A DNA stretch of 30,500 nt from a virus, in the IMG/VR virus record IMGVR_UViG_3300021197_001422, positions 1-30,500 of that record. One strand, written 5' to 3'. The translations under genes were made by a program, and so were the position numbers. Shown here one piece after another: positions 6,722 to 16,156 of the stretch (positions within the stretch are counted from its first letter, which is position 1; every line of letters begins with the position of its first letter). The notes below the pieces were generated by a model. That model was not told the origin of the DNA. It saw only the letters and a list, made by a program, of their open reading frames with translations, and made no database searches.

Positions 6722-6965
6722 TAATAAGCGTTATTATTTTTACAGTATTCGTTGGGTCGACATCACAGCTGATGGCGGACACGCCACCGAAGAAGAGTTC
6801 GAAAAAATGGAGCCTGCTATCATTGTTACCCATGCCTACGTGTTTAAAAGAACAAATAAACTGGTGTACACCTTTGCGTCTTATGATGAAAAGGAAGCCG
6901 TCTTCTCAGACAGAAACGTCATCCCACCCGGTTGCATATTAAAAATGGAAAAGATTCTCTTATGA
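6678..6965 (+). CDS. Conserved-looking protein of unknown function
   Basis: 95 residues. After a basic start (MVKRKKSKYKN) come YYFYSIRWVDITADGGHATE, EEFEKMEPAIIVTHAYVFKR and SYDEKEAVFSDRNVIPPG, a pattern that I take for an all-beta small domain known from marine phages but unnamed. Start ATG 6678 lies inside the preceding small ORF and has no strong ribosome site. Convergent with the small terminase gene, overlapping it by 6 bases. Confidence 0.65.
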   Translation: MVKRKKSKYKNAIINNKRYYFYSIRWVDITADGGHATEEEFEKMEPAIIVTHAYVFKRTNKLVYTFASYDEKEAVFSDRNVIPPGCILKMEKILL

Positions 6966-7469
6966 GTCTTTCTGAGATTTTGGTTTTGATAGCACTCGTT
7001 CTTTTAATTCTTTTTCATCGACACCCTCAAGAATCGGAGAGTAATCATCTATTATTCTCTTCATACGACTCTCAAGTTCTTCAGTTGTTAAATCCTCTAG
7101 CTTACCAGTTCTAATTATTTTCTGTTCAATATATAATCCTGCTGCTTTTCCACGTGCAACTTCTGCATTTACAGCTGCGGACCAGGCACCTTTTTTAAGA
7201 GCTTCAGCTCTAATCTGGCCTAACTCTGATATATGTTTTTCATAAGTTACTTCATATTTCTTCTGCCATTCTTCTCTTAACTCACCTATGTATTTAACTA
7301 CGAGTGGATATAATTTTGGATTCTGTAATTGAGATGCATATTGTCTTGCTCCTTCTTTGGCAAAGCCTGCATCAACAGCACATTGTGTTGCTGTTTTTCT
7401 GCCTTCATTCGTTACTAATTCGTAAGCGAATTTCATTTGCATTTCTGTAAGTTTCTTTGGTAGTCCCAT
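6960..7469 (-). CDS. terS: Terminase small subunit
   Basis: 169 residues from the ATG at 7469. The N-terminal part (MGLPKKLTEMQMKFAYELV, then ATQCAVDAGFAKEGARQYAS and QLQNP) is the helix-turn-helix layout of the Terminase_2 small-subunit family, which binds the packaging start site and recruits the large subunit. The following part is helical (EWQKKYEV..HISELGQIRAEAL) for oligomerisation, with an acidic C-terminus. An ATG 18 bases upstream (7487) exists but lies before the predicted transcription start. There is no ribosome site; the promoter at 7505-7477 would give an essentially leaderless message. Unusual: opposite strand to, and 3.8 kb away from, the large subunit. Confidence 0.85.
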   Translation of the reverse strand: MGLPKKLTEMQMKFAYELVTNEGRKTATQCAVDAGFAKEGARQYASQLQNPKLYPLVVKYIGELREEWQKKYEVTYEKHISELGQIRAEALKKGAWSAAVNAEVARGKAAGLYIEQKIIRTGKLEDLTTEELESRMKRIIDDYSPILEGVDEKELKERVLSKPKSQKDS

Positions 7470-7505
7470 TGACAAATACATATACATTGTTTATAAAAAT
7501 GTCAA
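7469..7505. promoter_or_regulatory. Two interlocked face-to-face sigma70-like promoters
   Basis: Plus: TTGACA 7469-7474, 17-base spacer, TATAAA 7492-7497. Minus: TTGACA 7505-7500, 17-base spacer, TATGTA 7482-7477. An 8-bp perfect inverted repeat, CATTGACA (7467-7474) and TGTCAATG (7500-7507), makes each -35 box abut the start codon of the oppositely directed gene. Predicted starts fall at about 7504 and 7470, next to ATG 7505 (plus) and ATG 7469 (terS, minus). Confidence 0.65.
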
Positions 7506-7729
7506 TGTTAAGCGGAAAGGTATTAAGACAAGTATTAGATAAAATGTTGAAGTCTCCTGCAGCTCAGGAAGCTAGGGTGCAAGTAATATTACCTGATGGT
7601 AAATATTATGACATTACTGGTGTACAATTGATGGAAAATAAATTATTAGGTGTGAGAGAAACACATCGAATAGCACTTACAATCAAGCCAGAGACGTGGA
7701 ATATGGGGAAGGTTATTAAGAAGCTGTAA
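7505..7729 (+). CDS. Small conserved-looking protein, unknown function
   Basis: 74 residues from ATG 7505 (MLSGKVLRQVLDKML). Upstream in-frame ATGs at 7499 and 7457 precede the transcription start predicted from the promoter at 7469-7497, so the third ATG is preferred; no ribosome site is seen. The body, EARVQVILPDGKYYDITGVQ LMENK and ETHRIALTIKP, is two beta-rich halves typical of a small phage protein that I know only as hypothetical. Its transcript would be in competition with terS. The VRR-NUC-like gene follows directly. Confidence 0.65.
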   Translation: MLSGKVLRQVLDKMLKSPAAQEARVQVILPDGKYYDITGVQLMENKLLGVRETHRIALTIKPETWNMGKVIKKL

Positions 7730-7731
7730 AG

Positions 7732-8103
7732 GTGAAACCCGAGCAAAAACTTTGGCATGAAATTAAGTTATACAACAAGAAAAATAATTGTAATTTGTCG
7801 TTCACAAGGCTTGAAAACCTTAGTAATCTTGGTACTCCTGACTTGTTGGTCTACAGTCCTAGCGGCAACTTTAAAACACTTGAATTAAAATATACAAAGC
7901 ATAACAAAATACGCTTCTCCCCACATCAAATATCGTTTCATATTAAACATCCGAAGAACTCTTTTATCTTAGTTAAAGGGGGTAATCCTTTAACCTATAA
8001 ACTTTATGAGGGAAGGTTTATCAAGGAGCTTGTGACTTATGGCTTGAGCCTTGATGCTTGTGCCTCTGACCTTGGAGCTTGCTGCTTGCGCCTTAGAGCT
8101 TGA
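7732..8103 (+). CDS. VRR-NUC-like / resolvase-like PD-(D/E)XK nuclease
   Basis: 123 residues with GTG start 7732 three bases after the previous stop. Nuclease core: early acidic helix (EQKLWHEIKLY), GTPDLLV with D37, KTLELKYT with E51 and K53, and SPHQISFH with Q66, the order of the VRR-NUC / Holliday-resolvase-like branch of PD-(D/E)XK enzymes. It would cut structured or replicating DNA; the partner is unknown. Length is near the family minimum. The last 20 or so residues (from LSLDACASDLGACCLRLRA) are encoded by a degenerate 7-bp tandem repeat and are probably an added tail. Confidence 0.75.
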   Translation: MKPEQKLWHEIKLYNKKNNCNLSFTRLENLSNLGTPDLLVYSPSGNFKTLELKYTKHNKIRFSPHQISFHIKHPKNSFILVKGGNPLTYKLYEGRFIKELVTYGLSLDACASDLGACCLRLRA

Positions 8104-8225
8104 GCCTTTATTCTTGGAGCTTGCGCCTGCCGCTTGTGGCTTGTGACTGGATACCCGTTATCCCTGCACCATTGCTCATGGACTAAATCGATTTGAGTTT
8201 GAATAAGCCGGCTAGTGCTGGCCAT
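8037..8225 (-). CDS. Small protein with a heptapeptide-repeat tail
   Basis: 62 residues on the minus strand. N-terminal half MASTSRLIQTQIDLVHEQWC and RDNGYPVTSH looks like an ordinary helical domain. The C-terminal half is a repeat of about seven residues (RQAQAP, RIKAQAL, RRKQQAP, RSEAQAS) encoded by the 7-bp tandem array at 8041-8148, read antisense to the nuclease tail. It starts 14 bases inside the end of the GP88-like gene and ends convergent with, and overlapping, the plus-strand nuclease gene. Function unknown. Confidence 0.5.
   Translation of the reverse strand: MASTSRLIQTQIDLVHEQWCRDNGYPVTSHKRQAQAPRIKAQALRRKQQAPRSEAQASRLKP
8041..8148. repeat. Degenerate 7-bp tandem repeat, (G/C)CTTGNN
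   Basis: About 15 consecutive units such as GCTTGAG, CCTTGAT, GCTTGTG, CCTTGGA, GCTTGCT, GCTTGCG. Three units equal 21 bases, so both strands encode peptides with a 7-residue period. A shorter copy lies at 8910-8950 on the other side of the GP88-like gene. Confidence 0.8.
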
Positions 8226-8909: not shown

Positions 8910-8950
8910 GCTTGAGCCTTGTCAAGCTTGTTGCTTGTTGCTTTGGCCAA
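8910..8950. repeat. Second, short 7-bp repeat array
   Basis: GCTTGAG, CCTTGTC, GCTTGTT, GCTTGTT, GCTTTGG; same consensus as 8041-8148. It encodes the C-terminal end of the minus-strand ORF 9110-8922 and lies in the promoter/leader zone of the GP88-like gene. Confidence 0.7.
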
Positions 8951-9288: not shown

Positions 9289-9478
9289 TGCTCTCAAGCT
9301 CCTTTATTCTTTGTTCTAGTTTAAGAACCCTAGTAGCTAACAAATTCAAATTATCTGTATTTGTTGAAACTACTTTGCCCAGTTTTAAAAGGTTCTCGGC
9401 GTTGGTTCCTATCATAGTCGCTAGGTCTTTTATCATTTTAAAAGCACTAGTCAGGTCATGATTTACTTTGTTTAACAT
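9275..9478 (-). CDS. Small coiled-coil protein
   Basis: 67 residues from ATG 9478, chosen over ATG 9496 because GGAGG lies just before it and the earlier ATG coincides with the predicted transcription start. Heptad-like throughout: VNHDLTSAFKMIKDLATMIG, NLLKLGKVV and LNLLATRVLKLEQRIKELES. It would form a dimer or trimer bundle. First gene of the minus-strand set leading to GP88. No family recognised. Confidence 0.65.
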   Translation of the reverse strand: MLNKVNHDLTSAFKMIKDLATMIGTNAENLLKLGKVVSTNTDNLNLLATRVLKLEQRIKELESNETT

Positions 9479-9502
9479 ATTTCCTCCGTTGTTCATAATT
9501 AG

Positions 9503-9531
9503 AATATAGGATATTCCTAGTTATATGTCAA
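9503..9531 (-). promoter_or_regulatory. Minus-strand promoter with TAGGA dyad
   Basis: On the minus strand: TTGACA (9531-9526), 17-base spacer, TATATT (9508-9503). The 13-bp dyad TAGGA-N3-TCCTA occupies 9507-9519, overlapping the -10 box and the spacer, the classic place for a repressor. Drives the 9478 gene. Confidence 0.7.
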
Positions 9532-13469: not shown

Positions 13470-15906
13470 AATACCATCTCAAGAGGAGATTACAGAAAAA
13501 GTACAAGAGAAAGTTACTGAAGAAGTAACAGCTCCTGATGGTGTTGAAACGATTCAAAACGAAGATGGATCAGTAGATGTAAACTTTGATCCTAGAGCCG
13601 TTGCTCCTGAAGAAGGTGACGAGCACTATTCTAATTTAGCTGAGTTCCTTGGTGATGAGATTCTTGATCCATTAGGCACACAACTACAAACAAATTTTGA
13701 AGAGTATAAAGAATCTAGAAGAGACTGGGAAAGAACTTATACATCAGGATTAGATTTATTAGGATTTAAATACGAAGACAAAACAGAACCTTTTCAAAAC
13801 GCTAGTGGTGCTACGCATCCAGTTTTAGCAGAAGCGGTTACACAATTTCAAGCTTTGGCTTATAAAGAATTACTCCCGGCCGAAGGACCAGTAAGAACAG
13901 CGGTCGTTGGAAAAGTTACTCCAGAAAAAACTCAACAAGCAGAGAGAGTCAAAGATTACATGAATTACGAACTTATGGAAAAGATGCCAGAGTACGAACC
14001 TGACTTTGATCAATTATTATTTTATTTACCTTTAGCGGGTTCAGCATTTAAGAAAACGTATTACGATGAATTAATGAATCGTGCAGTTTCTAAATTTGTA
14101 CCGGCAGATGATCTGGTTGTTCCGTATACGGCTACCTCATTAGACGATGCGGAAGCAATCGTTCATGTTTTAAAAATGGACGAGAACACTTTGCGTAAAC
14201 AACAAGTAGCAGGTTTCTATAGAGATATCGATTTAGGAACACCGACTGATAATGCTACAACAACTTCAGATCTTAAAGCTAAAGAACGAGAACTAGAAGG
14301 AATTAGAAAAACAGCACAAGAAAATGTTTTTACGCTTTTAGAAATACATACGGATTTAGATTTAGAAGGATACGAAGATAAAGATGTGGATGGTAACCCA
14401 ACAGGGATTAAACTTCCGTACATTGTTACTTTAGAAGAAGCAACAAGATCTATTTTATCTATTAGAAGAAACTATGAAATTGGTGATCCTAATAAATCTA
14501 GAATAAAATATTTCACTCACTTTAAATTTTTACCTGGTCTTGGTTTCTATGGCCTAGGTTTAATTCACATGATTGGTGGACTATCAAGAACAGCAACACA
14601 AGCCTTACGACAACTATTAGACGCAGGAACTTTATCTAACTTACCTGCAGGGTTTAAACAAAGAGGAATTAGAATCAGAGATGATGCACAGTCAATTCAA
14701 CCTGGAGAGTTTAGAGATGTAGATGCTCCTGGTGGAAATATAAAAGATTCATTTATGATGCTTCCATTTAAGGAACCATCACAAACTTTGTTACAGCTTA
14801 TGGGCGTCGTAGTACAAGCAGGTCAAAGATTTGCTTCAATAGCAGACTTGCAAGTAGGAGAGGGTAATCAACAAGCAGCTGTGGGTACGACCGTAGCATT
14901 GCTAGAAAGAGGATCGAGAACAATGTCGGCGATCCATAAAAGATTATATGCTTCACTAAAAAGTGAATTTAGATTATTAGCTCGAGTCTATAAACTTTAC
15001 CTCCCACCAGAATACCCCTATGATGTTGTGGGTGGTTCGCGAACAGTTAAACAAGCTGACTTTGATGACCGAGTTGATATACTGCCAGTTGCAGATCCAA
15101 ATATATTTTCTCAAACACAGAGGATCTCTCTCGCACAAACGGAACTTCAGCTGGCAGTTTCCAATCCACAAGTCCATAACGTTTATCAAGCGTATAGAAA
15201 TATGTATGAAGCGTTAGGTGTAAAAGATATTGATTTGTTATTAAAAAAACCACAACCGCCAATGCCAAAAGATCCTGCATTAGAACATATTGATGCAATG
15301 GCAGGTAAACCTTTTCAAGCTTTCCCTGGTCAAGATCATAGAGCTCACATTACGGCGCATTTAAATTTCTTAGCTACTAACTTAGTACAAAATTCACCGA
15401 TGATGGTAGCAAGTATTGAGAAAAATATTATGGAACATATTTCATTAATGTCTCAAGAGCAGATTGAAATAGAATTTGCACAAGAATTACAAACAGTAGC
15501 TATGATGCAACAACAAATTCAGCAAAATCCGCAGCTTCAACCTCAGTTAATGAACATGATGCAAAAGATTGAGTCTAGAAAAGCTGTATTGATTGCTGAA
15601 ATGATGGCAGAATTTAAAAAAGAAGACTCAGAAATTAATGGTGGCTTAGGTGCTGACCCATTAACTAAGTTAAAAGCAAGAGAATTAGACTTGAGAGCAG
15701 CCGAAAATCAAAGAAGAGCTGAAGATGATGAAGAAAGAATCAATCTTGATCGTATGAAAGCTATGATGAACCAGGCTAACTTCCAACAGAAGCTAGATCA
15801 GACGGAAGATTTAGCTGAATTAAGAGCTGCAACAAGTTTAACGAAGCAGGAAATGTCTACCGCAGGCAAAAAATTTGATTTCGGTAGAAATTTCCCTAAA
15901 AAGTAG
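13420..15906 (+). CDS. Portal protein (P22-like)
   Basis: 828 residues. Twelve copies would form the head vertex ring for DNA entry and exit. Recognition rests on size, place after TerL, and the blocks DWERTYTSGLDLLGFKYE, HMIGGLSRTATQALRQLLDA, TLLQLMGVVVQAGQRFASIA, and VGTTVALLERGSRTMSAIHK, which fit the long portal type of P22-like podophages. N-terminal 50 residues are acidic and variable; the C-terminal 150 (from about EQIEIEFAQELQTVAMMQQQ) are helical and Gln/Met rich, like the barrel extension. Ribosome site AAAGGAG before ATG 13420. Longer than P22 gp1 (about 725 residues). Confidence 0.9.
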   Translation: MADNVDKSLPNTRSEVKIPSQEEITEKVQEKVTEEVTAPDGVETIQNEDGSVDVNFDPRAVAPEEGDEHYSNLAEFLGDEILDPLGTQLQTNFEEYKESRRDWERTYTSGLDLLGFKYEDKTEPFQNASGATHPVLAEAVTQFQALAYKELLPAEGPVRTAVVGKVTPEKTQQAERVKDYMNYELMEKMPEYEPDFDQLLFYLPLAGSAFKKTYYDELMNRAVSKFVPADDLVVPYTATSLDDAEAIVHVLKMDENTLRKQQVAGFYRDIDLGTPTDNATTTSDLKAKERELEGIRKTAQENVFTLLEIHTDLDLEGYEDKDVDGNPTGIKLPYIVTLEEATRSILSIRRNYEIGDPNKSRIKYFTHFKFLPGLGFYGLGLIHMIGGLSRTATQALRQLLDAGTLSNLPAGFKQRGIRIRDDAQSIQPGEFRDVDAPGGNIKDSFMMLPFKEPSQTLLQLMGVVVQAGQRFASIADLQVGEGNQQAAVGTTVALLERGSRTMSAIHKRLYASLKSEFRLLARVYKLYLPPEYPYDVVGGSRTVKQADFDDRVDILPVADPNIFSQTQRISLAQTELQLAVSNPQVHNVYQAYRNMYEALGVKDIDLLLKKPQPPMPKDPALEHIDAMAGKPFQAFPGQDHRAHITAHLNFLATNLVQNSPMMVASIEKNIMEHISLMSQEQIEIEFAQELQTVAMMQQQIQQNPQLQPQLMNMMQKIESRKAVLIAEMMAEFKKEDSEINGGLGADPLTKLKARELDLRAAENQRRAEDDEERINLDRMKAMMNQANFQQKLDQTEDLAELRAATSLTKQEMSTAGKKFDFGRNFPKK

Positions 15907-15934
15907 GTATAAACTATTTAATAAGGAGAAAACT

Positions 15935-16156
15935 ATGGTTAAAATAACTAAAGAGCTAGGAGTTGGTAAAGACGGCTACCAAACAGGTGGTGTTGAGTAT
16001 AAAGAAGAGGTTGGGAAAGTAGCAGTAGACCCAAGATCTAAAATTATTACCAACCAAGACGATCCTGTGAACAAAATCAACGAAGGAAATACAGTTGATG
16101 TTCGAGGTAGAAGAAGAATGCTAGCTGATAAGAAAAAAACAGCAACTTGGTATTAG
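15935..16156 (+). CDS. Small protein following portal
   Basis: 73 residues from ATG 15935, with AAGGAG eight bases upstream; an in-frame ATG at 15875 lies inside the portal gene without a ribosome site. Begins MVKITKELGVGKDGYQTGGV; Lys, Gly and Arg rich, with a TGGV motif like its neighbours and a basic end (RGRRRMLADKKKT). Late-block position suggests a minor virion or assembly protein. No family recognised. Confidence 0.6.
   Translation: MVKITKELGVGKDGYQTGGVEYKEEVGKVAVDPRSKIITNQDDPVNKINEGNTVDVRGRRRMLADKKKTATWY

Follow-up and report, generated by a model that had tools for sequence, protein, structure and literature searches.

A probable pair of overlapping divergent promoters, predicted to give leaderless messages, between terS and a small gene of pelagiphage-like DNA

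We describe here a promoter block of about 41 bp that lies between the terminase small-subunit gene, terS, and a divergent gene for a 74-aa protein, and that probably consists of two overlapping sigma70 promoters giving rise, as predicted from the DNA, to two leaderless mRNAs. It was found in a 30,500-nt stretch of viral DNA (IMG/VR record IMGVR_UViG_3300021197_001422, positions 1 to 30,500; hereafter the window). The SAR11 group comprises the commonest bacteria of the ocean. The large terminase encoded in the window shares 78% identity with its counterpart in Pelagibacter phage HTVC027P, whose host is the SAR11 strain Candidatus Pelagibacter HTCC1062 and which has been placed among the HTVC023P-type pelagiphages (PMC12753301, PMC9599517); the window is therefore probably from a phage of this type or one near it.

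The minus-strand gene at 6960..7469, start codon ATG 7469, had been called terS in the preliminary description, and a match to PHROG 51 (E 7e-11) bears this out; it corresponds to gp29 of HTVC027P, whose annotated start matches position 7469. On the plus strand the 74-aa gene (7505..7729, start codon ATG 7505) corresponds to gp31 of HTVC027P. Its spacing from the next plus-strand gene, 7732..8103, which matches PHROG 2165 (listed as a DNA helicase), suggests that the two are probably co-transcribed. The 74-aa family is essentially confined to phages. Among phage records the gene was found in HTVC027P alone (DSL-LC04 and 023Pt_psg01 have a distant terS), and only three contigs of the genome collection encode a member. 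Neither PHROG nor Pfam nor PDB offered the protein a convincing relative, and it has no recognised domain; for two AlphaFold models (mean pLDDT 65 and 73.6) the only matches were viral proteins that are themselves uncharacterised, with a best E of 0.05.

The first bases of the two start codons, 7469 and 7505, lie 36 bases apart. An interlocked TTGACA/17/TATAAA and TTGACA/17/TATGTA had been reported for this interval, and the sequence reads exactly so. The plus promoter has its -35 box, TTGACA, at 7469..7474, where the box and the A of the terS start codon have one base pair in common, then a 17-nt spacer, the -10 box TATAAA at 7492..7497 and 7 nt to ATG 7505. The minus promoter begins with TTGACA at 7500..7505 (read from 7505 to 7500), which overlaps the A of ATG 7505, and continues through a 17-nt spacer to a weak -10 box, TATGTA, at 7477..7482 on the minus strand, followed by 7 nt to the terS ATG. 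Neither -10 hexamer has the final T, and TATGTA matches TATAAT at 3/6 positions; in many relatives the -10 position holds TATATT or TATAAT. Alternative in-frame starts at ATG 7499 (plus) and ATG 7487 (minus) were rejected, relatives keeping only 7505 and 7469.

Scoring was by a sigma70 weight matrix with the frequencies of E. coli, not SAR11; by this measure the plus promoter ranks as strong and the minus promoter as moderate. Among random window positions with the same -10-to-start geometry the plus score was reached in 0.08% and the minus score in 0.66%. When the 35 bp between the start codons were shuffled, the minus score alone recurred in 8.5% of shuffles, and both scores together in 0 of 200. 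Neither site was among the results of a generic consensus promoter scan, and no better promoter was found on either strand within the neighbouring few hundred bases (on the minus strand, within 400 bp).

The two facing boxes lie within the arms of a perfect 8-bp inverted repeat, CATTGACA at 7467-7474 and TGTCAATG at 7500-7507, which could be taken for an operator of a phage or host regulator and not for a -35 pair. The perfection of the arms in the window is in keeping with an operator, but a perfect repeat is also what two facing -35 boxes yield, and taken alone this one is at chance level: 8-bp inverted repeats with a gap of 20-30 nt number 10 in the window as against 5-15 in shuffled windows. 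Moreover, all that relatives keep of the arms is TTGA and TCAA, at the -35 positions, with changes to TTGC or GCAA such as -35 boxes allow, and their blocks hold no conserved dyad besides these boxes. We consider an operator highly improbable. The repeat is thus no rarer than chance would have it, and the -10 box of the minus promoter is weak; the case for paired promoters is carried by conservation.

In two IMG/VR scans both genes were found together at 159 loci, the window among them, of which 126 are distinct, and terS and the 74-aa gene are divergent in 159/159. Both ATGs abut the block in 64 of the 126 distinct loci. Another minus-strand ORF holds the block ATG, with terS displaced downstream, in 27; terS keeps its place at the block but the plus gene has a leader in 14; and the remaining 21 show other arrangements. 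Retention of the interlocked block thus extends to 91 distinct loci, including those where a new gene fills the minus slot. When the DNA between the ATGs was shuffled, fewer than 5% of shuffles reached both promoter scores for 93% of 74 distinct blocks, a set that includes a few false ones inside RNA leaders (L007, L011, L070, L155 and L157). Loss of a -35 box in close relatives had been named as a finding that would speak against the pair; both boxes are kept there, and inserts fall outside the block. Window and relatives alike have the geometry and the scores expected of two divergent promoters with overlapping polymerase-binding sites.

The block differs in sequence among groups of relatives and the two promoters are still recognisable, with good promoters on both strands in loci L103, L099, L160 and L031. 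For instance, L103 has TTGCAA-17-TATATT on both strands, and L160 has TTGACT-16-TATAAA on one and TTGACT-16-TATACT on the other. In L003 the minus block scores better if the spacer is taken as 15 nt and the -10 box as TATATT. One group has its plus ATG several bases farther from the -10 box, a point against the leaderless reading. The direction that looks the stronger, as judged by the boxes, varies by lineage. This bears on the possibility that the plus promoter alone is real, the minus match being a coincidence and terS being transcribed from farther upstream. The weakness of TATGTA would suit such a reading, as would the largest group of relatives, in which about 10% of shuffles reach the minus score. 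However, other groups have their stronger promoter on the minus strand (TTGAAC-17-TATAAT in L038 and L040), terS or its replacement starts at the block with no ribosome site, and the 400 bp searched on the minus strand offer nothing better, so that we regard a lone plus promoter as quite improbable.

With regard to translation, the earlier claim that neither gene has a ribosome site stands: no Shine-Dalgarno (SD) sequence precedes the start codon of terS or of the 74-aa gene, as expected of leaderless genes. SD sequences are in ordinary use in HTVC027P, where 53/87 genes have at least 4 SD bases as against 19% of random positions, and gp30 and gp31, the genes at its block, have none. Among relatives, an SD-like sequence precedes terS in 1/72 loci where terS is at the block versus 25/48 where it is displaced, and an SD of at least 4 bases in 0/64 of the loci where both genes abut the block. 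The position of terS has shifted at least 23 times on the TerS tree. In independent pairs the association of SD with position never runs in the wrong direction, although the pairs are few (median p 0.125); in supported pairs nearly all informative cases are as predicted, with only four or five per pairing and a sign test above 0.05. Together the counts and the tree pairs suggest that a block-adjacent minus gene does without an SD and that terS tends to have one once another gene has come before it. The same comparison across loci is uninformative as to the leaderless status of the plus gene.

A second candidate leaderless gene, starting at 9496 behind a minus-strand TTGACA/17/TATATT (window 9478-9531, ATG 6 nt past the -10 box), was rejected. 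In its sequence, ATGAACAACGGAGGAAATATG, the ATG is followed by an SD, GGAGG, and by a second in-frame ATG 18 nt on, so the gene is probably led, and ATG 9496 would probably just place an AUG at the 5' end of a message whose gene is SD-led in the ordinary way.

The ORF that displaces terS from the minus slot usually has 49-60 aa, often with a WDGRSR motif, and usually starts 39 nt from the plus ATG. HTVC027P is of this type, with the starts of gp30 and gp31 39 bases apart across TTGATA-17-TATAAA. Its minus-slot gene, gp30, occupies 15768-15944 (L162:5786-5962), and gp31 starts at 15983. Against Pfam ArfA, gp30 scores E 4e-4 and 20.2 bits, below the cut-off of 25.5, and its published ArfA label is for that reason uncertain. 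The one published expression result that we found gives gp30 a distinct pattern, with high levels at 3 h and again at 12-15 h (PMC12753301); this fits special control at the block and is neutral as to reciprocity with gp31.

How such a block might work can be outlined from its geometry. The intergenic stretch of 36-44 bp that separates terS from the 74-aa gene would be a fully overlapping divergent promoter pair, and we infer that the sigma70 RNA polymerase of the SAR11 host would read both promoters. Each -35 box being set against the opposite start codon, polymerase could bind in one orientation at a time, and, provided that both promoters work, mutual occlusion would follow from the geometry. 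Transcripts of the window would start at the AUG or within about two bases of it and would be translated leaderless, and the two directions would probably share one polymerase site in a ratio set by their -35 and -10 boxes.

The preliminary description had gone further and held that the two genes are expressed exclusively. This does not follow: one polymerase per DNA copy is not exclusivity over an infection, and the two directions might share the site in time. A true either/or switch, with terS and the 74-aa gene on at different times and aided by a regulator, seems to us unlikely. Steric overlap is certain if both promoters function, and the separate profile of gp30 in the minus slot of HTVC027P (PMC12753301) would be in line with a switch, but no regulator, activator site or reciprocal timing is on record, and terS, a packaging gene, is not known as a switch component.

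A more serious alternative, which we rate at somewhat below an even chance, is that the overlap reflects genome compaction only, with two ordinary leaderless promoters too weak to compete and no regulatory meaning in their overlap. The bidirectional promoters of E. coli that were tested showed no polymerase competition at natural strength, and did so only once one direction had been strengthened (PMC12825309), and the 21 distinct loci with other arrangements and the 14 with a one-sided leader (of 126) imply that strict leaderless symmetry is not required. Against compaction alone, the block is kept in 91 distinct loci, those with a new minus gene among them, and moves as a unit; such retention favours constraint, but says nothing for competition. 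Our preferred reading, overlapping sigma70 promoters with leaderless products, lends itself to direct tests of its main claims, HTVC027P being cultured on HTCC1062 with public time-course RNA-seq (PRJNA1253180). If the starts are confirmed, some 41 bp would suffice as a promoter for two genes, neither of them with an untranslated leader, and the block would allow competition between polymerases and translation of leaderless messages to be measured free of further layers of regulation.

Several described systems share features with the block. The leaderless genes of lambda (cI, at PRM/PR) and of Tn1721 (tetR) each adjoin a divergent promoter, so that here too a phage or transposon gene without a leader sits beside a promoter facing the other way. 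There, however, one side is leaderless and its product is a repressor, whereas both sides of the block are predicted to be leaderless and one product is TerS. A lambda-type switch needs a repressor on operators; the block has terS and a 74-aa protein with a moderate-confidence model and no solved relatives. The cI and tetR genes were named as the first leaderless cases (PMC3017554). A survey of TA-led leaderless genes (PMC3160421) describes starts at which, much as at the block, a signal resembling a -10 box and lying about 10-12 bp upstream replaces the SD, but concerns single genes in cellular genomes and not an interlocked pair in a phage; the window's TATAAA and TATGTA lack the final T of the TANNNT signal, which many relatives have. 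Bidirectional promoters with a shared -10 element (PMC10268837, PMC12825309) resemble the block in being divergent, sigma70-dependent, short and pseudo-symmetrical, with occlusion possible. The block falls outside this class, having separate -10 boxes and predicted starts about 35 bp apart, whereas those of Warman et al. share the -10 and start 7-25 bp apart (PMC10268837).

A further parallel is offered by the PCR and PM promoters of the EcoRV and CfrBI restriction-modification systems (PMC5333194), which likewise serve divergent genes from overlapping sites that admit one polymerase at once. To that extent the statement that no described switch is built this way falls, overlapping divergent promoters being known. 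It holds for the leaderless part: in EcoRV a C protein regulates and the C transcript is not leaderless, whereas both sides of the block are predicted to be leaderless and no regulator is known. Overlapping divergent promoters have been described before, and so have leaderless mRNAs. Within the open-access literature we found no description of a conserved block with both divergent genes leaderless; given that scope, our claim to novelty for it is a weak one.

Loci with a leader before the plus gene led us to a structured RNA. In 17 distinct loci this leader carries an element in which a fixed internal loop, GGCUUACGA/GAUACUG, separates an outer helix from a variable inner hairpin. An IMG/VR scan for the loop sequence gave at least 107 distinct matches; in about 88 of the 107 listed the outer stem has at least 5 pairs, and of the 80 listed matches that have an ORF downstream, 78 stand directly before a gene of the 74-aa family. 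Examples of such leaders are L036:3920-3985, L011:1842-1906, L071:620-677 and those in L186, L190 and L282. In 47 sequences, both partners vary at 12 of 13 pairs. Covariation is strong, with a score of 0.836 versus 0.248 for shuffles and no more than 0.212 when slid; the outer helix, but not the inner one, was in part a criterion of selection. The element matches no Rfam family, is absent from the window, HTVC027P and the leaderless relatives searched, and is apparently an undescribed class of structured RNA. We speculate, and rate it as unlikely, that the 74-aa family is controlled at the 5' end either by this leader RNA, perhaps bound by the 74-aa protein, or, as in the window, by having no leader and a polymerase site shared with leaderless terS, lineages having swapped one mode for the other.

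Some copies of the element stand apart from the family. Those in L253 and L266 precede an unrelated long ORF, and those in L168, L175, L181, L193, L215, L226, L241 and L247 have no ORF of at least 45 aa just downstream; such copies are possibly second targets or trans-acting. A second, small hairpin with GGGAGACUG (the GGGAGACTG element) precedes the 74-aa gene in L153, L155, L157, L158 and L161, and also the primase gene gp04 of HTVC027P (L165:1842-1850). In the window, degenerate GCTTGAGCCTTGAT-like and GCTTGTT repeat units occur at 8042-8116 and 8926-8943, outside the neighbouring genes or at their ends. An Rfam search of the window gave no match. Among relatives the Flavobacterium-1 RNA is found on the minus strand, above its gathering score, at L011:3637-3758 (114 bits) and L157:5884-6007 (83.6 bits), and a type II hammerhead ribozyme match on the minus strand at L226:9483-9544 comes near the threshold (34.5 bits versus a gathering score of 37).
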